From Pedobacter sp. KBS0701 (GTDB lineage: Bacteria; Bacteroidota; Bacteroidia; Sphingobacteriales; Sphingobacteriaceae): 64,000 nucleotides of DNA. This document shows, in pieces, positions 2,787 through 20,423 of this stretch. Location of the stretch: NCBI RefSeq assembly GCF_005938645.2, contig NZ_CP042171.1:2790001-2854000 (forward strand), in the 5' to 3' direction. The position numbers were made by a program, and so were the translations under genes. The notes under the pieces are model-generated. The model saw only the letters and a list, made by a program, of their open reading frames with translations. It made no database searches and was not told the origin of the DNA. The number at the start of each line of letters is the position of its first letter. The stretch's first letter is position 1.

Positions 2787-2820
2787 ATTTTTATATTTTA
2801 AATTCGTTAAATAATATAGC

Positions 2821-5800: not shown

Positions 5801-6222
5801 GCAACAACACCTTTAACCTCAATTTTTACCGCTACGCTTGCAGCAACAGCAGGTAAATTTTCCTTACGGCTGATCACGATGGTTTTGTTAACAATGTTAT
5901 AGCTCAGGTTTTGATCTTTTAAAGAAGCATTCAAAGCATCTACCAGTGGTACATTATTGAACTCGACCATTACATCTGGTTTATCCTGTAGCAATTGACC
6001 TTTGTAAAAGAAAAAATAGCCTGTTTGCTTTTTTATCTCCTTAAAAACTTGTTTAAGCGAGGTTTTTCTTCGAGAGAGCGTTACTGTTTGGGAAAAGGTG
6101 ACTGCCGAAACATGTAAGGCACCGACCAATAGTAAAATTGTAGTCAATTTCATGACCAATAAAATTTTAATCTTTACCCTCCGCATGTCGCACACGGGGT
6201 TGTAAAGGGTAGTTAATTTCAT
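2821..6222 (-). CDS. SusC/RagA family TonB-dependent outer membrane transporter with STN domain
   Basis: At 1133 residues this is a full-length SusC-type porin. In order: signal peptide (to about residue 45), an STN domain (about 52-115) that normally touches a FecR anti-sigma factor, a carboxypeptidase-regulatory-like domain (about 130-215, 'GVNVSIKNGASVGITNDKGEF'), the SusC signature 'VVTGYQTIKK', the plug, and a long barrel ending in an aromatic residue ('SVRAAF'). TonB/ExbBD energy would drive import of the substrate held by the SusD partner downstream. The STN domain and the FecR and ECF genes upstream show that transport is coupled to transcription through trans-envelope signalling. The ATG at 6222 gives the usual long N-terminus; an internal ATG at 6153 is possible. 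Confidence 0.97.
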   Translation of the reverse strand: MKLTTLYNPVCDMRRVKIKILLVMKLTTILLLVGALHVSAVTFSQTVTLSRRKTSLKQVFKEIKKQTGYFFFYKGQLLQDKPDVMVEFNNVPLVDALNASLKDQNLSYNIVNKTIVISRKENLPAVAASVAVKIEVKGVVADKATGETLPGVNVSIKNGASVGITNDKGEFKVNVEEGSILVFSYVGYELFETKVTGTKTLNVKLTSKMTQMNDVVVTGYQTIKKDNYTGNAVTISGDQLRRVNPQNLLQSIGTFDPSFKLIDNNLAGSNPNRIPSINVRGASALPSGDGQVLRRDDIQGNANRPVFMLDGYEVSVEKVFDLDVNRIASVTSLKDAAATAIYGSRAANGVIVITTKTPLEGKLRVEYNYELNFTAADLSDYQVLDAAEKLDYEVLAGLYSSSKQQVPQDQLDEIYYHKKANVVGGVNSYWLSQPLRNTIGHKHAINLDGGSQAFRYNVNLRYQTRPGAMKGSERDQYSGGMSFQYNVNKLQFRNELSITQVGATESPYGDFSSYVRMNPYYPLKDANGMAMRISDVYEKQDRSKEYVFNPLFDANLSSFNKSKYTEIIDNLSADLEVAKDLRLRAQMSVTTRSNSDDIFTSPQANKYYLYTTDKIDEKGEYTNREMKETYWDSNIRLTWLKQIGGNYFNALVGVNARTELRDQKEFTAIGFANDRFTSIGFAKGYAEDGKPQSRLEKARLFGSFFSMNYSYKNRYLMDGTVRIDGSSKFGVNNKLAPFWSFGLGWNVHQEEFLKGNPVISQLRIKASTGLTGSVEFDPYLSKTIYKYNTGNWYSSGIGAGVNSYGNENLGWQKTRMTDIGIDIGLFKDRVMIMPRIYKKFTKDILADITLPPSTGFLSYKENLGDMENKGAELGITVDALRSKDWSVNLNANMVTNRNKVVRISNALKKYNDRADELQSLKPGDGGYRGIPLLRFSEGQPFNAIYGVRSLGIDPENGRELYLKKDGTLTYDYDKRDYVVIGDPNPKVSGYFGGTVNYKRFSLYVQFQTFFGGDKYNLTLVERVENADPRYNVDKRVFEEKWKQPGDLSFYKNIADNGETDVSSRFIQPDNLINLQSVNFSYDMNKKIASKLSMSSLMFQVTANDVVRWSSVKEERGINYPFTRSLTFSVRAAF

Positions 6223-6250
6223 ACCTTTGTAATGAATGAGGTTAAAAAAT

Positions 6251-6323
6251 AGCAGCTGGGTTTCGAAGCAAGCTGCTTGTCCAAATTTCTACCGAAAGCG
6301 TTGCCACGCTTTCGGTTTTTTTT
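6251..6323. other. Two stem-loops between fecR and susC
   Basis: Two hairpins sit side by side. The first pairs AGCAGCT (6251) with AGCTGCT (about 6270). The second is CCGAAAGCG/CGCTTTCGG (6292-6316), followed by eight T on the plus strand. As a terminator the second works only for plus-strand transcripts, yet both flanking genes are minus. On the minus strand both lie in the 5' leader of susC, where they may affect mRNA stability or translation. Confidence 0.5.
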
Positions 6324-6429
6324 AAAGGTACTTTGCTAAATTTCTGGTAGTTTTTTCATCATAAAGTTTAGTTAGTTTGTGAATTGGTTGGTTGATTTTT
6401 TTGGCTGTTTAAAGAAAAGCCGTTCTTGT

Positions 6430-7548
6430 TTAATTTCCGGTTACGGTTAATACCCTGCCCTTAGCATCAATATGAACGTGGTTAAGTTCTAATATTTTAA
6501 AAACCTCTGCCAGGTTGCTGCTTCTTGGTATCTCTCCTATGTATTTTTCTGATGTAATTTTGCCTTGATAAACTACATCTACATCATACCAACGCGAAAT
6601 CTGTCGCATAATACTTTGCAGATCATCATCATCAAAAGAGAAAATATTATTCTTCCAGGCCATTTCTTTGTCAATATCAACCTGCTGATTGAGCGTTAAT
6701 TTAGCTGTGTTTATATTTAGCTTCGATTGTTCGCCCGGGTGCAGGTTTATAGTACGAGAGGCATTGCTCACTTTTACCGATCCTTCTAAAAGCGTAGTTT
6801 TAATAATAGCTTCATCTCTGTAGGCGTTAATATTGAAATGCGTACCTAAAACTTCAATGTTTTGTGCATCTGTTTTTACCTTAAAAGGACGGGTATGGTC
6901 TTTTGAAACCTCAAAATAAGCTTCGCCATTAAGTTCTACTACCCTTTCGTTTTTTGCAAAGGCATAAGGGTACTTTAAGGTTGTGGCCGCATTAAGCCAA
7001 ACTTTCGTTCCATCGGGCAGGCTTACCTGGTATTGTCCGCCACGTGGCGTGCTAATGGTGTTTGAGCCTGTAACCGGGGCATTAGGAATTTCTTTAATGA
7101 TGTATTCGAGTTGACCGTTTTTAGTCTTGTGGATGATAATACCGCTTTGGCTCGCAATCTGACCGTTTTTAGCATCATCCAGATTTACCACCGTTCCATC
7201 TGCTAGTGTTAACATCGCTTTATTTCCACCTGGAAGAATATCTTTTAACTCTGTTTTAGCTGTTAACGGATCAGCATTACGCTGGGCAATAAAATAAAGC
7301 CCAACGCCAAGGCATAAAACGATACTTGCCGCAACAGCAAGCCATTTAACCGTGATCAATTTTAAAGATTTACCACGAGGGCTTAATTGGTTCCAAACTT
7401 CTTGCTTACTGGATGCTATAATTGAATGATGGGGTGCTTCTTTTTCAAAAGGTAATTGCAGGTACCAATCTTCAACAATAGCCATCTCTTCGGGCGTACA
7501 ATTACCAGAAATGTATTTATCTAAAAGCTTTTTTGCATTTTTCTCCAT
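6430..7548 (-). CDS. FecR family anti-sigma factor
   Basis: A 372-residue FecR-type protein. The first ~65 residues are the cytoplasmic sigma-binding part ('YISGNCTPEEMAIVEDWY'). A single membrane helix follows (about 72-92). The periplasmic FecR domain carries 'TPRGGQYQVSLPDGTKVWLNA' near residue 167, and the C-terminus is a DUF4974-type domain ('FSFDDDDLQSIMRQISRWYDV'). It should hold the ECF sigma factor inactive until the STN domain of the SusC transporter signals that substrate is present. It lies 148 bp after the sigma gene and 207 bp before susC on the same strand, the standard order for such loci. Confidence 0.96.
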   Translation of the reverse strand: MEKNAKKLLDKYISGNCTPEEMAIVEDWYLQLPFEKEAPHHSIIASSKQEVWNQLSPRGKSLKLITVKWLAVAASIVLCLGVGLYFIAQRNADPLTAKTELKDILPGGNKAMLTLADGTVVNLDDAKNGQIASQSGIIIHKTKNGQLEYIIKEIPNAPVTGSNTISTPRGGQYQVSLPDGTKVWLNAATTLKYPYAFAKNERVVELNGEAYFEVSKDHTRPFKVKTDAQNIEVLGTHFNINAYRDEAIIKTTLLEGSVKVSNASRTINLHPGEQSKLNINTAKLTLNQQVDIDKEMAWKNNIFSFDDDDLQSIMRQISRWYDVDVVYQGKITSEKYIGEIPRSSNLAEVFKILELNHVHIDAKGRVLTVTGN

Positions 7549-7696
7549 TAAAAAGAAGTTTGTTTGGGTTGATTAATGTATATACGGCGAAGGTATAGCC
7601 ATGGGGGTATCAGAAAATTATTTTTTTTTAAAAATATATTTTCAATACACTTTAAATCGAAGAGAAAAAGCTTAGTTTAAATGCGCAAAAAGGAAT

Positions 7697-8281
7697 TTAA
7701 TGATAAGTTCTGAAGAGGAAAGCAACATAAATAAATATACCCAACCTTGATTTAAGAATTCGGAGCGCTTTTTTAACCTGGGTTTTGACCGTTAACTCTG
7801 AAAGACCTAATTCTAATGCAATTTCTTTGTGGGATTTATTTTTTTTTCGACTTAAAATAAAAATTTCACGCATTTTAGTTGGCAAAGCATCAATTTCTTG
7901 TTCAATTAATTGCGCCATTTGTTTTTCCCGCACCATATAATCAGTCAACACATGATCTTGATCTATATAATCCTGTAAAGAATCGACATATTTACTTTCT
8001 ACTTTTTGATGTGCAAATACATCCAGCACACGATTACGTACAGCAGTATATAAATATGCTGATAAGTTACCATCAGGTGCTACCTGTAAACGTTTAACCC
8101 AAAGCGATTCAAACAACTGGTGTAAAACGTCTTTCGCTTCTTCATCATCATTTAAGCGTTTGCTGGCATGGATGAAAAGTAGTCCATAAAAACGGTTGTA
8201 AATTTCGGTAAAGGCCATCTCATCACCTTGAGTTAACAAGTATGCCAATTCGCTATCAGAATATGAATCGTAAACACGCAT
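7697..8281 (-). CDS. ECF RNA polymerase sigma-70 factor (Bacteroidetes SusCD type)
   Basis: From the ATG at 8281 this is a 194-residue ECF sigma factor. Region 2 is visible as 'AFTEIYNRFYGLLF', 'EAKDVLHQLFESLW' and 'LSAYLYTAVRNRVLD'. Region 4 is visible as 'LPTKMREIFILSRKKNKSHKEIALELGLSELTVKTQVKKAL', the helix-turn-helix that reads the -35 element. The frame extends upstream to an ATG at 8320, but that adds a hydrophobic stretch unlike this family, so 8281 is preferred. It is partnered with the FecR protein next door and should activate the susC operon. The last dozen residues are hydrophobic ('IFIYVAFLF'), common in this subfamily. Confidence 0.95.
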   Translation of the reverse strand: MRVYDSYSDSELAYLLTQGDEMAFTEIYNRFYGLLFIHASKRLNDDEEAKDVLHQLFESLWVKRLQVAPDGNLSAYLYTAVRNRVLDVFAHQKVESKYVDSLQDYIDQDHVLTDYMVREKQMAQLIEQEIDALPTKMREIFILSRKKNKSHKEIALELGLSELTVKTQVKKALRILKSRLGIFIYVAFLFRTYH

Positions 8282-8689
8282 AGAGATAAACAAAGATAAT
8301 ACAAATACAATCGGTTTCATTGGCTTGTACCAGGGGATATCTTACTTATGTCTTGAAAGTTGTAACTTTTTACATGGAAATAGTGGTTTTTAACTACGAA
8401 AAAAGGAATTTAACAATTTGAAAGGTTTCGTAAACAAAAACAGTCATCAAACAGATAAGACTGATGCCCACTGTAAAAAATAGCAGGTAGAATCCAGGCT
8501 TATTTTTCAACTCAAAAACCAATAGGGTGAATGTTGGGGCCAGGTATGTGGGATATAGATCTATGGACTAAAAGTTTTTAACCACAGATGCACCAGATCA
8601 ACACGGATAGATATCTGTGTGTATCCTTTTGATCTGTGGTTAAATTATTTATGCTTGTGCCTAAAGGGACTTAACCTGATCAAGTTATG
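8282..8689. other. Intergenic region between sigma factor and heme oxygenase
   Basis: No convincing gene. It holds the upstream region of the sigma factor gene and, next to the heme oxygenase 3' end, one copy of the CCACAGAT inverted repeat. No terminator with a T-run was found for the heme oxygenase gene. Confidence 0.6.
8574..8645. repeat. Dispersed inverted repeat, CCACAGAT family
   Basis: The arms read TTTTTAACCACAGATG and GATCTGTGGTTAAAT around a partly self-complementary centre (GATATCTGTG). The same arms occur at about 31.4, 35.3, 46.4 and 53.4 kb. This copy lies just past the heme oxygenase stop, so its RNA hairpin could end or protect that transcript. Confidence 0.8.
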
Positions 8690-9256
8690 CTAAACCGTAT
8701 CTACATTTTCTTTTTCAAAAACATAAGCAAAATGTTTAAAGGTTTCGTTTGCTGCAACAATAGCCTCTTGTTCTTCTTGGTCAGTTTTTGCCTGTGCATT
8801 TAAAACAGCTACAAAATTGCCCCACATCATGCCTGTGGCTTCTCCATAACCCGAGAAGAAAGAAATACCTTTGCTTACCCCACCTTTTTCAAGCATTTTA
8901 ACAATAATACTTCCACCCATAATAGAACCTTCCAATACATATAATGCACCCAATGCCTGTACAACATTTTCAATTTTTGGTACGGTTGTAAATGGAAGAT
9001 CAGTGATATCTGCACCGAGTTCTAAAATATCCGCTTTAATATAGCCCGAATTTCTACGCTGTGCATAATCCGGTAGAACCGATGCCGTGATAAAAGGTTT
9101 AATTATTTCTTCGATATGACTGAAATACGCAAAAAAATGTTTCAACAAATCTGCATAGTCCTCATTGCTTCTGATTGCTTTTAGCTTTAAAACAACCTGT
9201 TTCTCTAAATTCTGGTGTTCGGCTTTTGTAGCCTCTTTAATATTTGTACTTAACAT
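8690..9256 (-). CDS. Biliverdin-producing heme oxygenase family protein
   Basis: A 188-residue all-helical protein of the heme oxygenase family (PF01126). The likely proximal heme ligand is His14 in 'KAEHQNLEKQ'. The distal helix has the usual glycine-rich kink ('LYVLEGSIMGGSII', about residues 108-125). It has no signal peptide and should act in the cytoplasm, opening the heme ring with reductant and oxygen to free iron. It is the last gene of the minus-strand heme operon, 26 nt after the TonB receptor gene, which fits its role as the final step after import. The reaction product (biliverdin isomer) cannot be told from sequence. Confidence 0.9.
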   Translation of the reverse strand: MLSTNIKEATKAEHQNLEKQVVLKLKAIRSNEDYADLLKHFFAYFSHIEEIIKPFITASVLPDYAQRRNSGYIKADILELGADITDLPFTTVPKIENVVQALGALYVLEGSIMGGSIIVKMLEKGGVSKGISFFSGYGEATGMMWGNFVAVLNAQAKTDQEEQEAIVAANETFKHFAYVFEKENVDTV

Positions 9257-9282
9257 GTTTTGTAATTTATAGTGTTTGAAAT

Positions 9283-11646
9283 TTAATCTTTATATAAACG
9301 GTAGGTTAAACCAGCCAGCAGCACGCGCCCTGGCTGTCCGGGCATTAAACGGTCGGTATAGTTCAAAATATTATCTGCCGTAAGTCTGATACTCAAATGC
9401 TGTTTCATTAATTTCTTTTCAAAAGCGGCATTAAACATAAAAAAGCCATCAACAAAGGTGTCGTACCGATCGATAAACTGGTTTCCATTGCGGTCGCCAA
9501 AGGGATATTTACCCCTGTAATTTATGCGTATGTTTAGGCTGGCATCCCAGGGGCGGTAATTATAAAAAGCTTTAAAATTGGCCATGTGACGCGATCTGTT
9601 TTCAATCCCCCAATAATCAGAAGGTTTTGGCGCATAGGAGTTTCCGGTTGCAGCATCGTGGATATTCTGGTTATAAGGATAATGCCCGGTTTTAATGCTA
9701 TCAATTACGCTTAAATCCTTCGCAATGAGGTATTGATAACCTGCGCTCAGTTCTAAGTTTTTGATCGGGCTAATGGCAAAAGAAATATCGCCCCCTTTAT
9801 TTACGGCTTCGGGTAGGTTCTGATAAGTATAAATATTCCTGTTCCCACTGCCTGTGGCTATCTGGATGCTATTGATCTGGTTACGTAAACTGTGATGAAA
9901 AACACCGGCTTCAACTTTCATGTTTTCTTTGGGTTTCCACTCGAAACTTAAATTTAACGAAGTACTTCTTTCTGCCTGTAAATTTTGATCGAGCTGGTTT
10001 AACAGAAAAGCCCTGATCTCGCTGATCTGTCCCTGCGCCTGCAACTGGTTTAATGTTTGACTTAACACTTCATTTCCAATAACCAGGTAATTTGCTGCCG
10101 GATTATAAAAAACAAGGTACCTCGATTTAAAGTCAGGTGCTTTAAATCCAGTGCCAGCACCGGCCTTAAAGGTTAAAGTTGGGATGATTTTATACTGCAA
10201 ACCTAAGCTGGGGTTAAGTTTACTCCCGTAGGTATTGGTTAAATCGTAACGTAGCCCTGCAACAATACCCAATTGTTTAGTGAGCTGCCAATCGCCCTGA
10301 AGAAAAGCAAAACCTGAACTTACTGAAGCTGGATTGGTTAGCGAAACATCATTCATACTTTCGATACTACCGCCCAAACCGCCTGTAAATTTAAGTTCAT
10401 CGTTTACACCATAGGCAAACTGCTGTTCGAAACGGTGTAAGTTCTGTGCGAAAATATCTTTTGTAATGGAGCTATTGGTCTGTTGCCAGTCTACACTTTG
10501 ATCTGACTGGAAATTGGTATAGTAATAACGGCTCATGCTTCGTAGTCCCGAACTGAAATTATGTTCGAGAGTAGCTGATAGGTTTAAATCCTGTTCGTCC
10601 TGGCTATCGCCTGAAATAATACCCAAACCAAAATCTTTAGACATAAAAGATTTCCGTAGTCCGTACCTGCCACTAAAACCAACAGTACTTTTAGGTGTTA
10701 AGCGATAACGCAGTCTCCCCTGTAAAGCATAATTATCGTAAGGTGGTGCAGTGGTACCTTGTTGGATGTATTTAGGATTGGTATTAAAACCATCAGTGCG
10801 GTAATAGTTTGCAGAAATATTTGCCGATCCTCTTTGCGAGGCAAATGGCGTTTCTCCTTCAAGGGTTATATCGGCAATATTCAAGCTTCCATAATTTGCG
10901 GCAACCGATGCCTGCGGCTGTAAAGCGCCGTAGCGGGTTACGATATTAATCGCCCCGCCTAGCGCTTCGCTTCCAAAGAGACAAGAGGATGCACCTTTAA
11001 TAATTTCGATCCGTTCGATATTGGAAACACTGATCCTGGATAAATCAAAATTTCCGCTGTTGCGGCCAACCATTGGCTGTCCATCAATCAATATCATTAT
11101 GTATTCACTGCTAAAACCCTGTATCTGTACACCCACAGATCGCGCACCACCGCCAATATTATTCACAATAGCAATTCCGGTTTGTTCTTTTAATATCTCA
11201 TCCAATCTCCTGCTTCCCATCAGTTCGATGGTGCAGCGACTGATTACGGTAACAGGCATGGCACTGCGCTCTAATTTTAATAAGTTATCCGGAGCAGCAC
11301 GGTTTTCAGATACGGCAATGTCGTTAAGTTCTCGTTCATCATCTGATAGTTTAATTATTAGGTTATTTGTAGCCGCAGAACCGATTTTAATATTGGCTTG
11401 ATGATTGATTTTGCCGACCATGCTTACGGTAATGTTGTAATTACCAGTAAATATCTTGTTGAAGCTAAAATTTCCTTTGGCGTCGGTTTCGGTGCTATGC
11501 CCGTCGGGCTCCAAACGCACAGTTGCACCACGTAAAGGTTTATCAAACTCATCAGTAACCTTGCCTTTTAAACTTCCATAATCTTGTGCAGCAGCCGTTA
11601 AATGAAAAAACACAAGGAAAAATATGATGGCGGATAGTTTAAACAT
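9283..11646 (-). CDS. TonB-dependent heme/hemoprotein receptor (HmuR-like)
   Basis: A 787-residue outer membrane receptor. It has a signal peptide ending near AAAQ, a carboxypeptidase-regulatory-like domain (about 25-100), a plug with 'VQIQGFSSEYIMILIDGQPMVGR' and 'RIEIIKGASSCLFGSEALGGAINI', and a barrel. Near residue 500 is 'GTGFKAPDF' followed by 'FYNPAANY', like the FRAP/NPxL-type box of heme receptors such as HmuR. Among heme-uptake genes it is the probable outer membrane heme channel, taking heme from the HmuY-type lipoproteins encoded upstream. It lies 44 nt after the S41 peptidase gene. Substrate is inferred from the box and the neighbours. Confidence 0.9.
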   Translation of the reverse strand: MFKLSAIIFFLVFFHLTAAAQDYGSLKGKVTDEFDKPLRGATVRLEPDGHSTETDAKGNFSFNKIFTGNYNITVSMVGKINHQANIKIGSAATNNLIIKLSDDERELNDIAVSENRAAPDNLLKLERSAMPVTVISRCTIELMGSRRLDEILKEQTGIAIVNNIGGGARSVGVQIQGFSSEYIMILIDGQPMVGRNSGNFDLSRISVSNIERIEIIKGASSCLFGSEALGGAINIVTRYGALQPQASVAANYGSLNIADITLEGETPFASQRGSANISANYYRTDGFNTNPKYIQQGTTAPPYDNYALQGRLRYRLTPKSTVGFSGRYGLRKSFMSKDFGLGIISGDSQDEQDLNLSATLEHNFSSGLRSMSRYYYTNFQSDQSVDWQQTNSSITKDIFAQNLHRFEQQFAYGVNDELKFTGGLGGSIESMNDVSLTNPASVSSGFAFLQGDWQLTKQLGIVAGLRYDLTNTYGSKLNPSLGLQYKIIPTLTFKAGAGTGFKAPDFKSRYLVFYNPAANYLVIGNEVLSQTLNQLQAQGQISEIRAFLLNQLDQNLQAERSTSLNLSFEWKPKENMKVEAGVFHHSLRNQINSIQIATGSGNRNIYTYQNLPEAVNKGGDISFAISPIKNLELSAGYQYLIAKDLSVIDSIKTGHYPYNQNIHDAATGNSYAPKPSDYWGIENRSRHMANFKAFYNYRPWDASLNIRINYRGKYPFGDRNGNQFIDRYDTFVDGFFMFNAAFEKKLMKQHLSIRLTADNILNYTDRLMPGQPGRVLLAGLTYRLYKD

Positions 11647-11690
11647 GTTTTATTTTTATTGTTGTAGTACCAGGTTTTATTCCTTCCTGT

Positions 11691-12968
11691 TTATTTTCTT
11701 AATCGTAACCTGTTTTCGAGCATTACACTTTCTACATTATTTACCTGTAAAAGGTCAGCTTTACTATTGGCAGTTTTACCTGTTGTGGCCAGCTTGTTTG
11801 CAGTTAGTATTCTGGTTCCGTTAACCAGCGAAAGCGCAGCATTTAAGCACAGTTCATCCGGATCGCCCAAAAGCGGATTATCTACTCCTTTTACAACAAC
11901 ATCCGGCTGCATGCCGCTAAAATAATCCGACCAGCCATTGGCATTTTTAATAAGGAAACTGCTCAGATAAATACTGTACTGATCGATATTAATTCCGAAG
12001 AAACCCACTGGTTTGCCATAGGTTTTCTCTCCGACCAGTTTCACATCAAAATAAGGTTTCAGGCAACTGATCAGCATTTCGCTGGCCGATGCTGTTTGTG
12101 CTGATACAATTACATAAACCGACTGGATACTTTGCAAATTCCCCTTTTTACTAAATTTATAGGTATTGCCGGCAACAGAATAATCTACATCAGCCATGGT
12201 CGCATTACGGCCATTATAAATGGTAGTTTTCCCATTAGCATCTAAATACGGCTGGTGTTTTAATATCGGTACAGTACCATTCTGCATGGCAGAATTAAAT
12301 ACTTCACTGTACATCACCTTTCCGTTCAAACTACCAGGAACAATTAAATTGGCTATATATTCTGCAGTTTCTAAATAACCACCTCCATTTCTTCTTAGAT
12401 CGATTACAATGGATTTTGGATTCGCACTTGCCAGATCTGCAAATACTTCATCTAGGGCTGTTTTGGTTGTGCTTAACTTAGGGAATGAACCTAAAGCGAT
12501 ATATGCAACCTGCTCACTACCAGTTGAAATGAGCTTACCCGCTAATACAGCTGTGCCTGGGTTTACGACCCCAGCACTTGTACCTGGTAAACTTCTACCC
12601 ACCTGCAGGTTCGAATATTTTGGATTCTCGAAATAAACCGGCAATTCGTAAGGGCTGTTAGTGGCTGTATTTATTTTAAGCTGCGAAATATCAAACAATT
12701 CTTTTTTAAATGCTGTGATATCGGAATTCATCCCGGCATATTTTTGTCTTGGGTTAAACTCTGCATAGCCTGGCAATACATCGTTCCATAGGTATACTTG
12801 TTTGGCGTACAAAAAAATTGAATCGAGCGTAAACTGTTTACGTGTACCCATGGTTGGTGAAACAATTTCATCCGCATCATCAACGGGAAGCTGTGCCTTT
12901 TTACAGGCATAGGTTCCCATTAGAATCAGCGTAAAGAGCGTAATATATAGCTTAATACAATGTTGCAC
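11691..12968 (-). CDS. S41 family peptidase lipoprotein in the heme operon
   Basis: A 425-residue lipoprotein (lipobox 'LMGTYAC', Cys22) with a C-terminal-processing-peptidase-type S41 domain. The substrate-side motif 'IVIDLRRNGGG' is at about 187-197. The probable catalytic pair is Ser294 ('TASASEM') and Lys319 ('KTYGKPVG'), with the same 25-residue spacing I recall for E. coli Prc. No PDZ domain is seen between the N-terminal part and the peptidase domain, unlike classical CtpA/Prc. Its place between surface lipoproteins and a heme receptor suggests that it trims or degrades a hemoprotein, or processes a partner. That role is inference; the peptidase family is clear. Confidence 0.88.
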   Translation of the reverse strand: MQHCIKLYITLFTLILMGTYACKKAQLPVDDADEIVSPTMGTRKQFTLDSIFLYAKQVYLWNDVLPGYAEFNPRQKYAGMNSDITAFKKELFDISQLKINTATNSPYELPVYFENPKYSNLQVGRSLPGTSAGVVNPGTAVLAGKLISTGSEQVAYIALGSFPKLSTTKTALDEVFADLASANPKSIVIDLRRNGGGYLETAEYIANLIVPGSLNGKVMYSEVFNSAMQNGTVPILKHQPYLDANGKTTIYNGRNATMADVDYSVAGNTYKFSKKGNLQSIQSVYVIVSAQTASASEMLISCLKPYFDVKLVGEKTYGKPVGFFGINIDQYSIYLSSFLIKNANGWSDYFSGMQPDVVVKGVDNPLLGDPDELCLNAALSLVNGTRILTANKLATTGKTANSKADLLQVNNVESVMLENRLRLRK

Positions 12969-12974
12969 TATTTA

Positions 12975-13952
12975 TTAGTTTGTAATGGTAATCATGTCGT
13001 CAAAATAATCTGATCCTGTACCCGCTGCATAATATTCTCCTGCAGGATAATTATAGATAAACAGATCGTATTGACCAATAGGCAAGCCTTCAGGCACCTT
13101 TAATGTTAATTGACCAGTTTTAGTTTCTTTGACCGTAAAATCATAAAACTGTTTGTTTGCTACATTTCGGATTGAAAACTTATTGATCAATTCAATCCTG
13201 TTTACCCCATTTAGTGTAAATTCTTCTCCAGGTTTTAAAGTGGTTTTTATGGCAGTCATTTCAAGAGCACTTATAAAAGGAGAGCCGGCAGTTATGCCAA
13301 AGGTCCGCTCTATAACTACAGTTCTTTGCCCAGAAACAACCTTCAGTTTATAAATACCATCTGGTGTTGTTGTATCTAATATCACACTTACAGCAATTGG
13401 AGTCAGTGTTCCAATTGTTAACTCTTTTTCATTGTTATTAGCTGTATTGATCAGGTAAACTTTGGTCTGATTTTTATCAGCAATAACATTATCACCGCTG
13501 ATAATAATATTCCTACCTTTTATTGCAAAATTTTTGGCATTGTATACTGAAATCCCACCAGTTACATCAACCTTAAGCAGTGGCTGATTTACAATCTTTT
13601 TAATTACATATTCTTTAGTCGTACCATTCTGCGCGGTTACCACAAACTTGGTTGTTTCTTTAAAAGCTACTGTTTCTCCAGATGATGGGTTAACACTTGC
13701 CCGTTCTGATACGACAATAGTGGGCACAATATTATCGGGTACTGCCTGATTTGATGGCCAATATATAGTGAGGTTCTTTTCACCAATTACAGCCTTTATT
13801 GGTTCACCATTGGCATCTTTTACGGTAAAACTTACAATGTCCGCATAAGGAAAATCTTCATATTCTTTTTTGCAGGCACTAAACAGGCTTAACAAGCAAA
13901 AAAGCAAAAGGCAGTATGAACTGGCAGAGAAGCGTTTATATGTTGTATTCAT
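12975..13952 (-). CDS. DUF5018/TIG-type surface lipoprotein of the heme operon
   Basis: About 325 residues from the ATG at 13952 (a TTG at 13958 would also fit). It has a lipobox ('LLSLFSAC', then KKEYEDF). The N-terminal domain reads 'DIVSFTVKDANGEPIKAVIG...LTIYWP...VPTIVVSERASVNPSSGETVAF', the pattern of Ig-like DUF5018-type domains. Two further IPT/TIG-like beta domains follow. It is 6 nt before the S41 peptidase gene, so the two are translated from one mRNA. It resembles the 14821-15786 product in layout. It is probably a surface binding protein; the ligand is unknown. Confidence 0.8.
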   Translation of the reverse strand: MNTTYKRFSASSYCLLLFCLLSLFSACKKEYEDFPYADIVSFTVKDANGEPIKAVIGEKNLTIYWPSNQAVPDNIVPTIVVSERASVNPSSGETVAFKETTKFVVTAQNGTTKEYVIKKIVNQPLLKVDVTGGISVYNAKNFAIKGRNIIISGDNVIADKNQTKVYLINTANNNEKELTIGTLTPIAVSVILDTTTPDGIYKLKVVSGQRTVVIERTFGITAGSPFISALEMTAIKTTLKPGEEFTLNGVNRIELINKFSIRNVANKQFYDFTVKETKTGQLTLKVPEGLPIGQYDLFIYNYPAGEYYAAGTGSDYFDDMITITN

Positions 13953-14017
13953 AATCAATTATTGTTAGATTTGCATTTTTAGAGCCCGCAAATATGGTCT
14001 TTACCCAAGGCTAATAT

Positions 14018-14043
14018 TCTTAAAACGATTCGGGATTATTCCC
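14018..14043. repeat. Left inverted repeat flanking the 197-aa lipoprotein gene
   Basis: AAAACGATTCGGGA followed by TTATTCCC. The mirror copy is at 14771-14797. Each arm contains the partial palindrome GGGA/TCCC. Confidence 0.65.
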
Positions 14044-14068
14044 TTATTTGGGTTTTATTTATGATTTT

Positions 14069-14101
14069 TAGGGGCGGCTAGTCGTGTTTTCGCCCCTTTT
14101 T
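14069..14101 (+). terminator. Terminator-like hairpin on the plus strand inside the minus-strand heme locus
   Basis: GGGGCG (14071) pairs with CGCCCC (14091), followed by TTTTT on the plus strand. It lies just after the stop of the 197-aa lipoprotein gene. Read on the minus strand the stem has no T-run after it. It could stop antisense transcription, or act as a processing or stabilising stem in the operon mRNA. Confidence 0.45.
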
Positions 14102-14143
14102 CAAATCAATTTCAATTCAGGAAATCCCCTGGTGAATTAATCC

Positions 14144-14737
14144 TTATTTTAATCTCTTAATATGGAAGTTTACAGTAGTATTGTAAGTACCAGATGTAGT
14201 TACGCCATCAAGCTGAACTACATAAAGTCTGGTTGAACCAGCAATTGTTGAGCCGTTACCTACAACAGCATATCTTAGAGCCACAGGAGTAATGGTACGG
14301 TTAACGCGGTCGTAATTATACCATCCAACTACAGTTGCACTATTGCTACCCAAAGTGCTAATTGCACCCAATGTAACCGAAGAAACATCGGTTAAAGTAA
14401 TACCAGTAACATTAGTTACTGAAGCAGAATCGTAATAACCAAGGCTATTTGTTCCTGCGATGGTAATGTTTCCGTTAAAGTTACTGTCAAAATTAACCTG
14501 GTTTCCGGAGCTTGCAACAACATTATTTAATAAGTCGTAACCAACCGCAGTCCAGGAAGTAGGCGAAGTTGATGAATTGGTTACTACACCCGCTTCCGTA
14601 GCACCAACGGCAATTAACGCAGTTGTATTTTGTAAAGCAAGTTTGTTATCTGGTTGAACGGCTTCTTTTTTACAAGCGGTTCCTAATATGGCTAAAGTTG
14701 CAATTGCGAACGTAAGTTTTAAAAATTTCATTTTCAT
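14144..14737 (-). CDS. Small unrecognised lipoprotein of the heme operon
   Basis: A 197-residue protein with a lipoprotein signal ('LAILGTAC', then KKEAVQP). The mature part is rich in Ser, Thr, Asn and Val with alternating strand pattern, suggesting a small all-beta domain. It contains the phrase 'TPVALRYAVVGNGSTIAGSTRLYVVQLDG'. I do not recognise a family. It lies 83 bp after one lipoprotein gene and about 190 bp before the next. This spacing is wider than elsewhere in the operon, and the gene is bracketed by an inverted repeat (14018 and 14771), so it may be a later insertion. Surface location is likely from the signal; a heme-binding role would be only association. Confidence 0.7.
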   Translation of the reverse strand: MKMKFLKLTFAIATLAILGTACKKEAVQPDNKLALQNTTALIAVGATEAGVVTNSSTSPTSWTAVGYDLLNNVVASSGNQVNFDSNFNGNITIAGTNSLGYYDSASVTNVTGITLTDVSSVTLGAISTLGSNSATVVGWYNYDRVNRTITPVALRYAVVGNGSTIAGSTRLYVVQLDGVTTSGTYNTTVNFHIKRLK

Positions 14738-14770
14738 TTTTTTTTAGATTTATGATTTTTACTATATAAA

Positions 14771-14797
14771 TGGGAATAATCTCCCGAATCGTTTTTC
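14771..14797. repeat. Right inverted repeat flanking the 197-aa lipoprotein gene
   Basis: GGGAATAATCTCCCGAATCG followed by TTTT. It is the reverse complement of the 14018-14043 arm apart from a two-base insertion. It lies about 35-60 bp upstream of the ATG at 14737, so it may also be a promoter-region operator. Confidence 0.65.
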
Positions 14798-14820
14798 ATG
14801 ATTGAATGGTAAACAGGCTG

Positions 14821-15786
14821 TTATTTTGCAGTGACGGTAACAGACCAGTTTAGGGTTGATAAAGGCCAGGTACCAAAAGATGCTGTTGGTGTATATAGCC
14901 CTGGTGGAACGGTATCAGGCACCCGGATTACAGCCTCGGTACGATTATAGGAAACAATAGGCAAGGGTGTTTTTTGTCCGTTTACCGTAATATAGAATTC
15001 CTTAAAATCGTGGAATATAATTTGCGAAGAATTGATTTTGAAGGTTTCACCCTGTTTAACAGTTACCGGACCATAGTTTATGCCCGGCCTGCCATAAACT
15101 ACCTTTACCGGATACTTCATTTCAGAAGTTAAGGCCTGTACTTTTACCCTTACTTTGTAGGTTCCGGTATCTAAAGTTTGTGAAACCTGCAGGTAACCAT
15201 AAGTATAGGTCTTAACACCACCTATCATGGCTACCGATATACCTGGCGTTCCAAGCGAAAGGCTGGGTGTTAACTCATATTCCTTATCGTTTTTATCAAC
15301 TAAAAATGCTTTGATCTTTTTAAGGTCAGAAACATTAAAATTACCTTGAACGCGCACATCATACGTACCAACTGCCATTGTAGATGTTGTAGTGGCTGTT
15401 GATAGTTCGATTAATACCAAAGGCGAGATCTGATTTAGTTTGATAATCAGTTTGTAAGTTGAAGTGCTTTGATCAGCACCTACAACAGTATAAGTCTTTT
15501 GGCTATTTAATACCTCAACCGGTGCAAGCGTTTCGCTCAGTTTAGCTCCTGCCGAAAGTTTGATTGCAGGTTCGATTACATCCAGTTCATAATAATAAGG
15601 TAAGTAAAGTGTAATGGTTTTATCAGTCTCATCAATGGCACCGAAAATGTTTCCATCCGATACAGCAACCTTAAACTCGGTGATTTTATTTGCCGGAAGT
15701 GGATCCAGACTAATTGTTTTCTTGCAAGCGGCAAGCGTAGCAACTGTTAATATAATACAAAGCAGTTGCGTTAATTTATTCTTCAT
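14821..15786 (-). CDS. DUF5018/TIG-type surface lipoprotein (paralogue of the 12975-13952 product)
   Basis: A 321-residue lipoprotein (lipobox 'VATLAAC', then KKTISLDP). The N-terminal Ig-like domain has the pattern 'ITEFKVAVSDGNIFGAID...ITLYLPYYYELDVIEPAIKLSAGAKL', parallel to the N-domain of the other DUF5018-type lipoprotein in this operon. Two later beta domains include a TIG-like 'PGINYGPVTVKQGETFKINSSQIIF' segment. It starts 30 nt after the HmuY-type gene. The two paralogues may bind parts of the same ligand or help display HmuY at the surface. Function not established. Confidence 0.78.
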   Translation of the reverse strand: MKNKLTQLLCIILTVATLAACKKTISLDPLPANKITEFKVAVSDGNIFGAIDETDKTITLYLPYYYELDVIEPAIKLSAGAKLSETLAPVEVLNSQKTYTVVGADQSTSTYKLIIKLNQISPLVLIELSTATTTSTMAVGTYDVRVQGNFNVSDLKKIKAFLVDKNDKEYELTPSLSLGTPGISVAMIGGVKTYTYGYLQVSQTLDTGTYKVRVKVQALTSEMKYPVKVVYGRPGINYGPVTVKQGETFKINSSQIIFHDFKEFYITVNGQKTPLPIVSYNRTEAVIRVPDTVPPGLYTPTASFGTWPLSTLNWSVTVTAK

Positions 15787-15816
15787 TTTAATATGGATGT
15801 TGATTTATGCGTGGGT

Positions 15817-16575
15817 TTATTTAATCTCGAATTTTGTACTTCCTTTTGGCACAATGACGAATTCAAAGGTGAAATACATGTGTGGGGTGGTTCTGAACCA
15901 TTTGTCGGCAGTAAAAGCATCTTTATAACAGCTGATCATTTTAATCTTTGCATAATCGCCTTTGGCCGTACGGACAATAACGGTGCGTTTTTCGGGCATG
16001 GCATAGGCCACATGCTGTTTATCATAACTACCATCTCCCCTTTTGGTGCCTCCAAAATCGTAAAGGTACCAACCAATACCTTCTCCAAAATCGCCTTCAT
16101 TGTCGGTTCCAATAAATTTGCTGATGCTTAATGTAGCATCTGCAGGCACATCAACTACCTGGTCAAATGGTTTTTCCAAAATGGCAATAGCGCCTGAACC
16201 TGTGCTTCCTGATCCTAAACTTGTTGATGACTGACCGTTGTTAGGACTTAAAAAACTATTGTAAAGACCGTTAAAGCCAACATCCCAACGATTTGTTTTG
16301 GCATATAGCAAGGGCACTATTTCTTTTGTTTCCAGGCTGAACAGCACAGCTGTTGGTGGTACGGTTGGATTGGCATCATCTGTTTCTACAGCAAGGTTTT
16401 CGATACGCTGTAATTTATAATATGGTGTGCCACCTTCTGTTTTGGTCGGTATTTCCTTTTCAGGTTCCGGCGAAATCACTTCGTCTTTTTTGCAGCTTAT
16501 AAAAAGTACCGCCAGTACCAAAAAGGTTGAAACCCATTTAAACAGCACTTTATTTATTATAGTAATATTGTTCAT
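15817..16575 (-). CDS. hmuY: HmuY family heme-binding lipoprotein (copy 1)
   Basis: A 252-residue lipoprotein (lipobox 'LAVLFISC', then KKDEVIS) of the HmuY family (PF14064). Family marks are 'TNRWDVGFNGLYN' near residue 95, 'GIGWYLYDFGG' near 167, and the C-terminal 'YAKIKMISCYKD' followed by a 'MYFTFEFVIV' strand. HmuY proteins bind heme at the cell surface, take it from host hemoproteins and hand it to an HmuR-type receptor. It lies 7 nt after a second HmuY-type gene, so the locus has a tandem pair. The heme-ligating residues differ among family members and cannot be fixed here. Confidence 0.88.
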   Translation of the reverse strand: MNNITIINKVLFKWVSTFLVLAVLFISCKKDEVISPEPEKEIPTKTEGGTPYYKLQRIENLAVETDDANPTVPPTAVLFSLETKEIVPLLYAKTNRWDVGFNGLYNSFLSPNNGQSSTSLGSGSTGSGAIAILEKPFDQVVDVPADATLSISKFIGTDNEGDFGEGIGWYLYDFGGTKRGDGSYDKQHVAYAMPEKRTVIVRTAKGDYAKIKMISCYKDAFTADKWFRTTPHMYFTFEFVIVPKGSTKFEIK

Positions 16576-16582
16576 CTTTCAG

Positions 16583-17314
16583 TTATTTGGTCTGTAAATT
16601 TTTGCTTCCATCCTGTTGTACATAATATTTAAAAGTATAGTAAGGCGCAGGCCAGTTTAAATCAGTAACACTGGGCGGATTGCCTTTATAGGCATTAATC
16701 AATTGTAGTTTGGCGTATTTACCATCAGGTAACCTAATGGCGTAGGTGCGGTTGGGTATAGCCTGCATAATATGCGAACTGAGGCTATAGAAAAACCATC
16801 CGTTTGAGGTTGCCGACGATGCCCAGCCAATTTTAGTTACTTTGCTCGCATCAAAGGCCTGATCAGAGGGCGCCTGATTAAGCGTATCGTAACTTTGCTC
16901 AAGCATTATAACCGCACTTTTAGCCATTCCGCCATAACCAGGGTTAAATTGATAATCTTTATCATTTACATAAACCTCGCTATTGTAGGGACCGGTAAAG
17001 GCGAGGTCCCAGTCTTTTGTTTTTAGCCATTGTGCCGAATCAGCTGCATTACGGATCCAGATCTGTTTCTGATCATTGAAACGAAAAAGAAAAGTATAAA
17101 ATGCACGTACTTCTTTGCCCGGCGTTCCATTTCCCATGGCGGCCTGAGTATCGCCAGCCAGATCGGTTATCACAATACTCTTACCATCCTGTAAAACTTC
17201 GTTTGGATCGGGTTCATCTTTTTTGCACGAACCAAGTGAGAGAACCAATAACAAAAAACCAACAGCTAAAACTGTTTTTCTCTTTATTGGCCAACTGGAT
17301 TTTGTATATTTCAT
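16583..17314 (-). CDS. HmuY family heme-binding lipoprotein (copy 2, first gene of operon)
   Basis: About 243 residues from the ATG at 17314, which places the signal peptide and lipobox ('LLVLSLGSC', then KKDEPDP) correctly. Upstream in-frame starts at 17335 and 17359 would lengthen a cytoplasmic tail and overlap the promoter box. HmuY marks are 'TKDWDLAFTGPYNSEV', 'NGWFFYSLSSHIMQAIPNRTYAIRLPDGKYAKLQLINAYKG' and a final 'YYTFKYYVQ' strand. It heads the minus-strand heme operon. The upstream region carries an AT-rich candidate repressor box and 21-bp direct repeats. The tandem HmuY genes may differ in heme source or affinity. Confidence 0.85.
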   Translation of the reverse strand: MKYTKSSWPIKRKTVLAVGFLLLVLSLGSCKKDEPDPNEVLQDGKSIVITDLAGDTQAAMGNGTPGKEVRAFYTFLFRFNDQKQIWIRNAADSAQWLKTKDWDLAFTGPYNSEVYVNDKDYQFNPGYGGMAKSAVIMLEQSYDTLNQAPSDQAFDASKVTKIGWASSATSNGWFFYSLSSHIMQAIPNRTYAIRLPDGKYAKLQLINAYKGNPPSVTDLNWPAPYYTFKYYVQQDGSKNLQTK

Positions 17315-17321
17315 TATGATG

Positions 17322-17344
17322 TTATTTTTAATCATTCTAAATAA
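17322..17344 (-). promoter_or_regulatory. AT-rich candidate repressor box at the hmuY operon
   Basis: On the minus strand the core is TATTTAGAATGATTAAA inside the inverted ends TTATTT/AAATAA. It lies 8-30 bp before the ATG at 17314, next to the predicted transcription start. Near-identical boxes sit at the araC-type gene (21794-21816) and at hmuT (17590-17612). Its base composition and symmetry resemble Fur-type operators; the binding protein is inferred. Confidence 0.6.
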
Positions 17345-17384
17345 GAACACTGCAAACATCCATATTAAGGGCCATAAATGGTTT

Positions 17385-17447
17385 GTGCAATCCGTATTTT
17401 CTTTTGTGCAATCCGTATTTTCTTTTGTTCAATGCGTATTATTTATC
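17385..17447 (-). promoter_or_regulatory. 21-bp direct repeats, candidate AraC-type operator
   Basis: Two perfect 21-bp copies (17385-17405, 17406-17426) and one degenerate third copy (17427-17447). On the minus strand the core is ATACGGATTGCAC, with ATACGCATTGAAC in the third copy. A 21-bp period is two helical turns, the classic arrangement for AraC-family sites. From the predicted hmuY start near 17346 the repeats would cover about -39 to -100, an activator position. An AraC-type gene is 3 kb away in the same locus. Confidence 0.6.
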
Positions 17448-17638: not shown

Positions 17639-18481
17639 ATGAGGATTAAAAAGTATTATATTGTATTGATTATCGTTTCTTTTTTTAGTGCTACGGAATA
17701 TGTTGCTGCACAGGTGAAGCGTATCATTACCTTAAGCAGTGCCATTAGTGAAACCGTAAATGCATTGGGTTACGGTAAGAATATTCTGGCTACTGATGTA
17801 ACCAGTGTATCGCCGGAAGAGATTAACAGATTGCCCAAAGTGAGCAGAAACCGCTCTTTTTCTGTTGAAAGTATTACCGCTTACCGTCCAGATCTTATTT
17901 TGGTACCTGAAGGAGATTTTTCTAAAGAAAACCTTTACCAGTTTAAATCATTGGGTATCCGGGTGGTTACCATCCGCCAGGAATTTTCTGTTCAGGGTGC
18001 AACAAAATTTATCAGGCAAATTGCCAATGCCATTGGCGATAAGGCACGCGGAGAACAACTGGCACAAAAAACAGAAAGTAACATCAAAACCACTTTAACT
18101 CAGCTAAAAAAGAGCAGCAAAAGCCCGAAGGTTTTATTTATTTATGCACGTGGCGTTGGCACCATGAATGTCGCCGGCAAAGGCAGCAGCATAGATGAGA
18201 TCATTAAACTGGCAGGAGGCAAAAATGCCATTCAGGAGTTTAGCGAGTTTAAACCTTATACCACTGAAGCATTGATTAAAAGCAATCCGGATGTGATTTT
18301 AATGTTCGATTTCGGATTAAGCAGTTTAGGCGGAAGAGCAGCCTTTTTAGATCTTCCTGGTGTAAGTTATACCAATGCCGGAAAAAATAAAAAGATCATA
18401 GAAATGAACGGACCTCTTCTGATCAACTTTAGCAATAGACTGCCAGAAGCCATTAAAGCACTAAATAACCGTATTTTGTAA
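17639..18481 (+). CDS. hmuT: Heme ABC transporter periplasmic substrate-binding protein
   Basis: A 280-residue protein with a signal peptide ('FFSATEYVAAQ') and a periplasmic-binding-protein fold of the BtuF/HmuT class (PF01497). Typical segments are 'KRIITLSSAISETVNALGYGKNILATDVTSVSPEEINRLPKV' at the start, 'ESITAYRPDLILV', and 'VAGKGSSIDEIIKLAGGKNAI'. It should carry heme in the periplasm to the HmuU permease. Its stop overlaps the hmuU start (TAATG at 18479), showing translational coupling. Heme rather than cobalamin or siderophore is inferred from the adjoining hmuY and heme oxygenase genes. Confidence 0.92.
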   Translation: MRIKKYYIVLIIVSFFSATEYVAAQVKRIITLSSAISETVNALGYGKNILATDVTSVSPEEINRLPKVSRNRSFSVESITAYRPDLILVPEGDFSKENLYQFKSLGIRVVTIRQEFSVQGATKFIRQIANAIGDKARGEQLAQKTESNIKTTLTQLKKSSKSPKVLFIYARGVGTMNVAGKGSSIDEIIKLAGGKNAIQEFSEFKPYTTEALIKSNPDVILMFDFGLSSLGGRAAFLDLPGVSYTNAGKNKKIIEMNGPLLINFSNRLPEAIKALNNRIL

Positions 18482-19524
18482 TGAAAAGAACCGTTATTTA
18501 TACCTGCCTGAGTGTAAGTTTATTGGTTGCCATCTGTTTTTCCTTAGCCTCAGGTGCCATGCACATTCCCATAAAAGAAGTGATTAATACCCTAACCCAT
18601 GCCATGGGGTTTTCTGTTTTTGGCAGTGCCGGTCACGGTATAAATGAAGGGGTAATTATGATGATCAGACTGCCCCGCACCTTGATGGGTGTACTGGTTG
18701 GTGCAGCTTTGGGCATTTCTGGTGCAGCCATACAAGGAATATTCAGGAATCCATTGGCCGAACCCAGTTTGGTAGGTATATCGGCTGGGGCATCGTTAAT
18801 GGCGGTATTAATTATTGCTTTCGAAACGCTGTTATTTTCTAGTTTGAGTCAGCTGCTGGGTTATTACCTTTTGGCCTTTGGCGCTTTTGCCGGTGCAGGC
18901 ATTACCGCCATGCTGGTGTACAATCTTTCTAAAATCAATGGACAGGCAAATGTTTCGACCATGTTGCTCGCGGGTATTGCCATCAATGCAATGGCTGGCG
19001 CTTTAACCGGATTGGTTACTTATCTGGCCGATGAACAGAAACTCAGGAGCATTACCTTCTGGATGATGGGCAGCCTGGGCGGGGCTACCTGGCAAAATGT
19101 AAGCTGCTTGTTTCCTTTTGTACTTATCCCTGTAATTGGGCTCCCATTTTTAGCCAAAGGTTTAAATCTATTTGCCATTGGCGAAAATCAGGTAGAATTG
19201 ATAGGCTTAAACCCCAACCGCATTAAAATATTGGTGGTGGTATTGGCTACCATGGCTGTTGGTGCTTCTGTTGCCGTTTCGGGAATTATTGGTTTTATTG
19301 GCCTGCTCATCCCCCATCTTACTCGTTTGTTGGGCGGAGTAGATCATCGTTTTGTACTTCCTGTTTCGGCATTAATGGGTGCATTGGTACTTACATTGGC
19401 TGATATGGTTTCGAGATTGATTGTGCAACCAATCGAATTGCCGATTGGTGCGGTTACTGCTTTAATGGGTACGCCCATATTTTTATATATCCTCATTAAA
19501 GACAAAAAGAAATTAGTTAATTAA
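18481..19524 (+). CDS. hmuU: Heme ABC transporter permease (FecCD family)
   Basis: A 347-residue membrane protein of the BtuC/FecCD permease family with about ten helices. Family marks include 'RLPRTLMGVLVGAALGISGAAIQGIFRNPLAEPSLVGISAGAS' near residue 61 and 'GIIGFIGLLIPHLTRLLGGVDHR' near 265, the loop that contacts the ATPase. It should form the inner membrane channel for heme with HmuV. It overlaps hmuT by one base and is followed by hmuV after 11 nt. Confidence 0.95.
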   Translation: MKRTVIYTCLSVSLLVAICFSLASGAMHIPIKEVINTLTHAMGFSVFGSAGHGINEGVIMMIRLPRTLMGVLVGAALGISGAAIQGIFRNPLAEPSLVGISAGASLMAVLIIAFETLLFSSLSQLLGYYLLAFGAFAGAGITAMLVYNLSKINGQANVSTMLLAGIAINAMAGALTGLVTYLADEQKLRSITFWMMGSLGGATWQNVSCLFPFVLIPVIGLPFLAKGLNLFAIGENQVELIGLNPNRIKILVVVLATMAVGASVAVSGIIGFIGLLIPHLTRLLGGVDHRFVLPVSALMGALVLTLADMVSRLIVQPIELPIGAVTALMGTPIFLYILIKDKKKLVN

Positions 19525-19535
19525 ATAATCGATTT

Positions 19536-20423
19536 ATGCTCAGAGTAGAATCCATCAGCTATAAATTAAACAACAGGCCACTTTTAAAAGATATCTCATT
19601 CAGTATCAGGCCAGGCGAAATGGTTGCACTTTTAGGGTCGAACGGTGCCGGGAAATCTACCTTAATGCGACTGCTTTCTGGTGAACGAAAGCCCGACAGC
19701 GGGCGGATTATGTTATACGGAGCAGATATTAAACATTATAACCGAAAAGTACTGGCCACCAAAAGGGCTTATCTGCAACAACACAACCCCATTACCATGG
19801 CCTTTAGTGTGAAAGAAATCGTGATGATGGGCCGTTATGGTTTTAAAAGTTTATCATCGGCCAAAAATGATCCGCTAGCCCTTACCGAAACGATGGAAAT
19901 CTGCGGATTAACTGATCTTGCAGACCGATCGATGTTAAGTCTTTCGGGAGGTGAACAGCAACGTGTACACCTGGCACGGGTACTGGCCCAATTGTGGGAC
20001 AATAAAGACTCGGTATTGCTCCTGGACGAACCGACCAACAATATGGATCTTCAGTTTCAGCACCAAACTCTTGCTATAGCCGCTGCCATGGCAAAAAAGG
20101 GGTATATGATTGTAGTGGTATTGCACGAAGTTAATCTCGCAGCGCAATATGCCAGTCGCATAATTATTTTAAAAGACGGTAGAAAATGGTGGGATGGAAC
20201 ACCTGTACAGGTACTTACCCCTCAGCATATATATACGGCATTTGGCATCCATGCACAGGCCTATACAGACCAAAGCAGCCTAAAAACGATTATTGTACCC
20301 AAAGAAATTAAGCTTTATGCGGCAAAATTTAACACCAATCTGAAAACGACACAACAACCCATATATAAGTTAAAGACTATCGAAACTGATGAATTAATCA
20401 ACCTCCAATCTGTAAAGATTTAA
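19536..20423 (+). CDS. hmuV: Heme ABC transporter ATP-binding protein
   Basis: A 295-residue ATPase. Walker A is 'GSNGAGKST' (34-42), the Q-loop 'YLQQHN', the signature 'LSGGEQQRVHLARVLAQL' near 135, Walker B 'SVLLLDEPTNNMDL', and the switch histidine in 'VVVLHEVNLAAQYA'. This is the HmuV/FepC pattern for iron-chelate and heme importers. The C-terminal 45 residues beyond the usual fold are basic and variable. It powers HmuTU. The next gene starts 12 nt downstream, so the small Fur-like gene is in the same operon. Confidence 0.95.
   Translation: MLRVESISYKLNNRPLLKDISFSIRPGEMVALLGSNGAGKSTLMRLLSGERKPDSGRIMLYGADIKHYNRKVLATKRAYLQQHNPITMAFSVKEIVMMGRYGFKSLSSAKNDPLALTETMEICGLTDLADRSMLSLSGGEQQRVHLARVLAQLWDNKDSVLLLDEPTNNMDLQFQHQTLAIAAAMAKKGYMIVVVLHEVNLAAQYASRIIILKDGRKWWDGTPVQVLTPQHIYTAFGIHAQAYTDQSSLKTIIVPKEIKLYAAKFNTNLKTTQQPIYKLKTIETDELINLQSVKI

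Follow-up and report, generated by a model that had tools for sequence, protein, structure and literature searches.

Relation to described HmuY systems

In Bacteroides thetaiotaomicron and Porphyromonas gingivalis, one or more HmuY-family lipoproteins and their cognate TonB receptor are encoded in a single heme operon, hmuYRSTUV (PMC12583661, PMC12106395), and in B. thetaiotaomicron the heme iron is released by HmuS de-chelation (PMC12583661). The aerobic, Flavobacteriia-type heme locus hfpR-1813-hfpY of Flavobacterium psychrophilum also pairs a HmuY-family heme binder with a TonB receptor, without HmuS (PMC9331221). A TonB receptor with several surface lipoproteins is likewise found in the levan utilisome and other Sus-type complexes (PMC7618045; structures 8aa2 and 6e57). 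Here we describe a locus of Pedobacter sp. KBS0701 that shares features with each of these systems and lies in a window of 64,000 nucleotides (contig NZ_CP042171.1, positions 2,790,001 to 2,854,000), by whose numbering coordinates are given. Eight genes occupy the minus strand between 17314 and 8690, in the order HmuY1, HmuY2, LipB, LipC, LipD, S41 peptidase, TonB receptor and heme oxygenase. A sequence-only reading had taken them for one operon, and all eight open reading frames (ORFs) are indeed present, with short gaps of 7 nt (HmuY1–HmuY2), 30 nt (HmuY2–LipB), 83 nt (LipB–LipC), ~190 nt (LipC–LipD), 6 nt (LipD–S41), 44 nt (S41–receptor) and 26 nt (receptor–heme oxygenase). The transport unit also takes in HmuT-, HmuU- and HmuV-type genes (17639–20423), which diverge from HmuY1. 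We consider this unit, with a probability of roughly 0.7, to be an expanded HmuY-type heme-acquisition locus of aerobic Bacteroidota, in which the HmuY and Lip lipoproteins, an HmuR-like receptor and HmuTUV would feed a heme oxygenase route, with the S41 peptidase as an accessory.

The canonical arrangement of a HmuY gene beside that of the TonB receptor HmuR was found in the Pedobacter locus. In contrast to hmuYRSTUV, the HmuS chelatase is missing from both the locus and the genome (no match to PF02514, the CobN/HmuS-type chelatases, in the whole genome), and a heme oxygenase is encoded in the locus instead. HmuTUV is a true FecCD-type ABC transporter, and three HmuY-fold proteins are present, together with two immunoglobulin (Ig)-type lipoproteins and an S41 peptidase that are absent from the known operon. 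The F. psychrophilum locus differs in having, besides the receptor, only a single HmuY protein and a DoxX protein, with no LipB, LipC, LipD or S41. The earlier remark that known HmuY loci are smaller is borne out for hmuYRSTUV. Compared with Sus-type complexes, the operon encodes neither SusD nor a glycan enzyme, the receptor is HmuR/BtuB-like rather than SusC-like, and only single domains are common to the two. The sequence-only reading knew of no described system with this gene set, and none was found in our search of openly accessible literature. The locus is a variant of Hmu/HmuY heme acquisition: its purpose, heme uptake, is ordinary, and its composition is new and well conserved.

Of 145 Pedobacter genomes, 46 contain a match to HmuY1, ~38 of them a strong one, and in gene maps of the genus loci this set reappears, in some cases with as many as six copies of HmuY. 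Eighty loci from named genomes were compared (Sphingobacterium 34, Pedobacter 18, Chitinophaga 10, Flavobacterium 4, Mucilaginibacter 3, and others). These loci were found by a HmuY1 search, so all counts from them are conditioned on HmuY1, and they are related by descent, so the counts are not independent events. A TonB receptor is present in 79 loci, HmuY2 in 78, HmuT in 70, LipB in 67, LipD in 65, heme oxygenase in 56, LipC in 48 and S41 in 32; the association of S41 and DUF5018-type genes with HmuY in other genomes, on which the sequence-only reading depended, is therefore observed. HmuY1, HmuY2, LipB and LipD occur together in 65/80 loci, from Sphingobacteriaceae, Chitinophagaceae and Flavobacteriaceae, with a TonB receptor nearly always present. 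Other genera of the family have the genes in the order receptor, HmuY1, HmuY2, LipB, LipC, LipD, S41 and heme oxygenase, with HmuTUV divergent, and in Flavobacterium the LipC slot is filled by a remote LipC relative. Among 395 sampled genomes of the class, strong LipB/LipD matches were found in four, two of them in this family. The gene set is real and conserved, and confined mainly to these groups; its recurrence in dozens of species makes it more than a product of chance.

HmuY-fold and Ig-type lipoproteins

By sequence similarity, HmuY1 (16583–17314, minus strand) and HmuY2 (15817–16575, minus strand) are members of the HmuY family. Profiles of HmuY1 and HmuY2 make this assignment firmer than the single-protein Pfam scores do, matching BfrB (8b6a, E-value 6e-15), 8b61 (4e-5) and HmuY (3h8t, 2e-4), and the HmuY2 profile matches 8b6a with an E-value of 1.5e-11. 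The HmuY1 of a related locus (L074) exceeds the Pfam HmuY cut-off, with 36 bits versus 27. HmuY1 is the first gene of the operon, for which ATG 17314 is a likelier start than 17359, and its lipobox is followed by Cys-Lys-Lys-Asp-Glu. The surface-export motif C-X-K-(D/E)2, defined in Capnocytophaga (PMC5080379), was found in 26/39 HmuY1 orthologues and in none of the LipB, LipC, LipD or S41 orthologues; its calibration does not extend to Pedobacter.

His196 of HmuY1 (258-aa ORF numbering) is invariant in 37 orthologues and His188 of HmuY2 in 32, and both occupy the same alignment column. In the 3h8t profile alignment, this histidine is a few positions or less from the residue that serves P. gingivalis HmuY as second heme ligand; that residue was located by the 32-residue spacing between the ligands His134 and His166. 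Gaps in the alignment make transfer of the ligand uncertain. The loop carrying the first heme ligand is much shorter in HmuY1 and HmuY2 in the same alignment, and one invariant histidine was found in each. Axial heme ligands of the HmuY family come as His/His, His/Met or Met/Met pairs. Some Pedobacter loci contain tandem arrays of four to six HmuY-type genes (L062:8385-12584, L055 and L060).

LipC (14144–14737, minus strand) had been counted with LipB and LipD as one of three other lipoproteins beside two HmuY proteins. The assignment of HmuY1 and HmuY2 stands, and LipC has to be moved to their side: the lipoproteins comprise three HmuY-fold proteins (HmuY1, HmuY2 and LipC) and two of Ig type (LipB and LipD). 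The LipC profile aligns with that of HmuY1 over 160 columns (hhalign, 98.2%), and an AlphaFold2 (AF2) model of LipC, with a predicted local distance difference test score (pLDDT) of 83 and mostly >90 for the mature part, has the HmuY-type all-beta fold. The top eight structural matches of the model are all HmuY-family proteins (Z 9.9–12.8), the best being 6r2h (Z 12.8) and 3h8t (Z 11.4) over 128–136 residues, followed by a DUF4466 protein (7.9), with all else at or below 3.5. On the strength of this fold and of the profile match to HmuY1, the view of LipC as a lipoprotein without relation to HmuY was rejected. Where the LipC profile matches LipB, LipD and S41, it does so in the signal peptide only (21–42 columns), and weak Pfam/NCBIfam enzyme matches of LipC, LipB and LipD were judged to be due to chance. 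No His or Met was found in the invariant columns of LipC (M1 aside), which has Arg/Thr at the position of His196 in HmuY1, and LipC is classed as a HmuY-fold protein, not as a heme binder. Because the conserved histidine is missing, LipC may, by analogy with BfrB and BfrC of Bacteroides fragilis, bind another porphyrin or none (PMC12106395).

LipC is enclosed by an inverted repeat with partner arms at 14022–14043 and 14772–14795. Complementary arms of 13–18 bp, against a mean of 8.3 after shuffling, flank LipC in the intergenic regions of 17/24 genus loci with LipB-LipC-LipD. These arms come in three versions (AAAACGATTCGGGA, AAAACAATCCGGGA and ATTAATCATCCGGG), which represent paired changes. 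In the mRNA, the arms may pair into a long-range stem and so set LipC apart. A mobile cassette (transposon or invertible segment) is disfavored, since the repeat has no copy elsewhere in the genome, its changes among the many species that retain it are coordinated, and the orientation of LipC is constant. Directly 3' of LipC, a conserved hairpin without a T-run (14071–14096, minus strand) has the stem GGGGCG/CGCCCC here and GGGACG/CGTCCC in aligned relatives, again as paired changes; it is perhaps an mRNA-processing or attenuation site.

LipB (14821–15786, minus strand) and LipD (12975–13952, minus strand; ATG 13952 is a likelier start than TTG 13958) are paralogues by profile comparison (hhalign, 99.9%). 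Both had been described as DUF5018-type. This applies to LipD, the only one matched by the Pfam DUF5018 family (12975–13958, 1e-4, under its cut-off); LipB is not matched and belongs here as the paralogue of LipD. In the AF2 model of LipB (pLDDT 89), the N-terminal domain resembles the levan-utilisome lipoprotein 8aa2_G (Z 11.2), and the C-terminal pair consists of IPT/TIG-like Ig domains, similar to those of the surface glycan-binding protein (SGBP) SGBP-B (6e57) and to the extracellular Ig domains of Met and plexin. LipB profiles match 8a9y_T and 6e57; matches of its Ig domains outside the SGBP and IPT proteins, among them titin and ICAM, were set aside as generic Ig similarity. Tandem Ig-like domains on a lipid anchor, as in SGBPs, are thus predicted for LipB and LipD (from the LipB model). 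The C-terminal glycan-binding domain is absent, with the LipB chain ending after two Ig domains, and the operon contains no SusC/D pair; both lipoproteins are therefore classed as SGBP-like rather than as SGBPs.

Receptor, transporter, heme oxygenase and regulation

The TonB-dependent receptor (9283–11646, minus strand) has an N-terminal CarbopepD_reg domain and matches PF00593, PF07715 and PF13715, and is followed by the heme oxygenase (8690–9256, minus strand; PF01126, 1e-12, 48.8 bits versus a curated cut-off of 23), so both of these assignments in the sequence-only reading hold. The heme receptor families TIGR01786 and TIGR01785 are matched by the receptor below cut-off. The heme oxygenase sequence contains a TxxxH motif with His14, and a signal peptide is not apparent. 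The divergent plus-strand genes encode an HmuT-like substrate-binding protein (17639–18481; PF01497, 1e-29; IsdE TIGR03659, 1e-18, below cut-off), an HmuU-like FecCD permease (18481–19524; PF01032, 1.6e-91) and an HmuV-like ABC ATPase (19536–20423; PF00005, 2e-32). A gene for a small Fur-like protein follows (20436–20786, plus strand; PF01475, 1.5e-5) and has the same position in near relatives. Next to it, again on the minus strand, is an AraC-family regulator (20767–21747; PF12833, 1.7e-19).

Three 21-bp direct repeats, one per 21 bp, are located 68 to 130 bp before HmuY1 (17382–17444), where 0.01 would be expected by chance; no other near-exact copy is present in the genome. The same spacing is seen in three related loci (L022, L044 and L045), and we take it to fit an AraC-type operator. 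AraC-family genes are also found inside or beside other such loci. The AraC regulator probably acts on the repeats as candidate operators.

The computed gene content, linkage, families, folds, conserved residues and catalytic dyad can be accommodated in a single route, in which we infer heme as the ligand. HmuY1 and HmuY2 would capture heme on the cell surface or close to it, probably through one conserved histidine each. LipC, having lost this histidine, would act as their partner or bind another porphyrin. The lipoproteins LipB and LipD may serve as Ig-domain rods, keeping either the binding proteins or a hemoprotein close to the HmuR-like receptor, as SGBPs do in glycan uptake complexes. 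The receptor would transfer heme to the periplasm and HmuTUV from there to the cytoplasm, where the heme oxygenase would open it and release the iron. Iron release by de-chelation is unlikely because the genome lacks a CobN/HmuS protein, and this absence is as expected if the heme oxygenase performs that step. The S41 peptidase would be an optional accessory.

Adjoining the operon in the window is a separate, ordinary Sus-type unit (457–8320) with genes for a DUF4843 protein, SusD, a SusC-type receptor and a sigma-70-like factor; the ORF between the receptor and the sigma factor reads as a putative anti-sigma factor.

The S41 peptidase and competing explanations

The S41 peptidase (11691–12968, minus strand) is a lipoprotein with a clear Pfam Peptidase_S41 match (PF03572, 4e-21) and no Pfam PDZ match, as first reported; the absence of a PDZ domain before the catalytic domain distinguishes it from the Bacteroides S41 lipoprotein 3k50 and the Ctp/Tsp proteases (CtpA/CtpB type), with which it shares the S41 domain and the Ser/Lys dyad. 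The dyad, Ser294/Lys319 with a spacing of 25 residues, lies in invariant alignment columns and is kept in 66/68 relatives. The residue four positions after the lysine is Phe or Ser in this group, where CtpB has Gln. Relatives of 490–560 aa, such as that in L074, carry a PDZ domain in mid-protein, and a tree of 68 sequences implies two transitions between compact and PDZ-containing forms, whether the PDZ columns are removed or kept. Compact forms come from HmuY-type loci in 40/42 cases, one of which (L026) has LipB-LipC-LipD but no HmuY. The remaining two are at a different locus, one of them at 5.757 Mb in this genome. This second PDZ-less S41 lipoprotein (L021:8492-11362, ~5.7565-5.7594 Mb) is 59% identical to that of the operon and adjoins a gene for a MACPF/DUF5648 protein, not HmuY; a near-identical arrangement is present in L024. 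In Pedobacter HmuY loci, S41 is often followed by a small Cys-rich DUF6686 protein (~106 aa; L074:10611-10931). Chance linkage of S41 with HmuY was rejected: with 3–9 S41 matches per ~6 Mb genome, one would be expected inside a 20-kb locus in ~1–3% of cases, versus 32/80 (shared ancestry not removed). The S41 peptidase is an optional accessory of the locus, missing from 48/80 otherwise similar loci, and hemoprotein proteolysis therefore cannot be essential to the system.

The sequence-only reading had S41 acting outward, as a surface protease that cuts hemoproteins so that the HmuY proteins collect the freed heme. This was a guess, and we regard it as unlikely. The enzyme is a lipoprotein with an intact dyad, its gene is usually directly behind LipD (26/41 cases in genus and family loci; gaps on the same strand are mostly between -1 and 49 nt), it is linked to HmuY in five genera (Pedobacter, Sphingobacterium, Olivibacter, Pararcticibacter and Chitinophaga), and its closest compact relatives are tied to these loci. 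However, the gene is dispensed with in most of the 80 loci and the export motif after the cysteine was found in 0/27 S41 sequences, leaving no recognizable surface-export signal. S41/Ctp proteases are mostly periplasmic, with unfolded or C-terminal substrates, and the second compact enzyme beside MACPF/DUF5648 proteins indicates that the compact form is not specific to heme. An inward role, with S41 acting on the lipoproteins encoded in the same operon to process, release or clear them, for example by shedding HmuY or removing misfolded or unloaded ones, is possible and is put forward tentatively. It is consistent with the tight coupling to lipoprotein genes, with the location of S41 directly behind HmuY arrays where LipD is absent (L055, L059 and L061), with the lack of an export motif, and with the presence of LipC in 27/32 S41-bearing loci versus 21/48 without S41 (shared ancestry not removed); processing is also the commonest role of S41 proteases. 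Against it, the system works in many species that have no S41. Doubtful, and less probable than either role, is a heme utilisome, in which the receptor, the three HmuY-fold and two Ig-rod lipoproteins and the PDZ-less protease would be assembled in the outer membrane as a single stable complex, by which hemoproteins are taken up intact and opened and their heme is imported; if true, it would be a heme counterpart of the Sus glycan machines.

Several observations weigh against heme acquisition as the function of the locus. The Pfam HmuY matches of HmuY2 (15817–16575, 1e-5) and HmuY1 (16583–17359, 6e-5) are both just under cut-off. That the ligand is heme cannot be deduced from the HmuY fold, because some members of the family bind metal-free porphyrin or nothing (PMC12106395). 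A heme oxygenase is not within reach in 24/80 loci, and no acidic residues follow the LipB cysteine, so its surface exposure is unsupported by the known Capnocytophaga motif. The best NCBIfam match of the receptor is the B12 receptor (155 bits, cut-off 600), a BtuB resemblance, and HmuT matches BtuF about as well as IsdE. These two matches would also fit a locus that imports another tetrapyrrole (a metal-free porphyrin, cobalamin or a degradation product), as would the fact that BfrB, which the HmuY profiles here match best, binds iron-free protoporphyrin in B. fragilis (PMC12106395). Import of another tetrapyrrole is nevertheless very improbable, given the heme oxygenase in the operon here and in the majority of the 80 loci, and the invariant histidine kept in HmuY1 and HmuY2.

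With heme acquisition as the preferred reading, HmuY systems, known from host-associated anaerobes and fish pathogens, have a larger version that is conserved in free-living aerobic Bacteroidota. The Pedobacter locus combines stalk lipoproteins related to those of glycan uptake with a degenerate third HmuY and a linked protease. About four families without an assigned function (LipB, LipC, LipD and the PDZ-less S41) can be named as probable parts of heme acquisition. The locus provides a testable model for the combination of surface lipoproteins around a nutrient other than sugar and, from aerobic bacteria, a counterpoint to heme de-chelation by HmuS.

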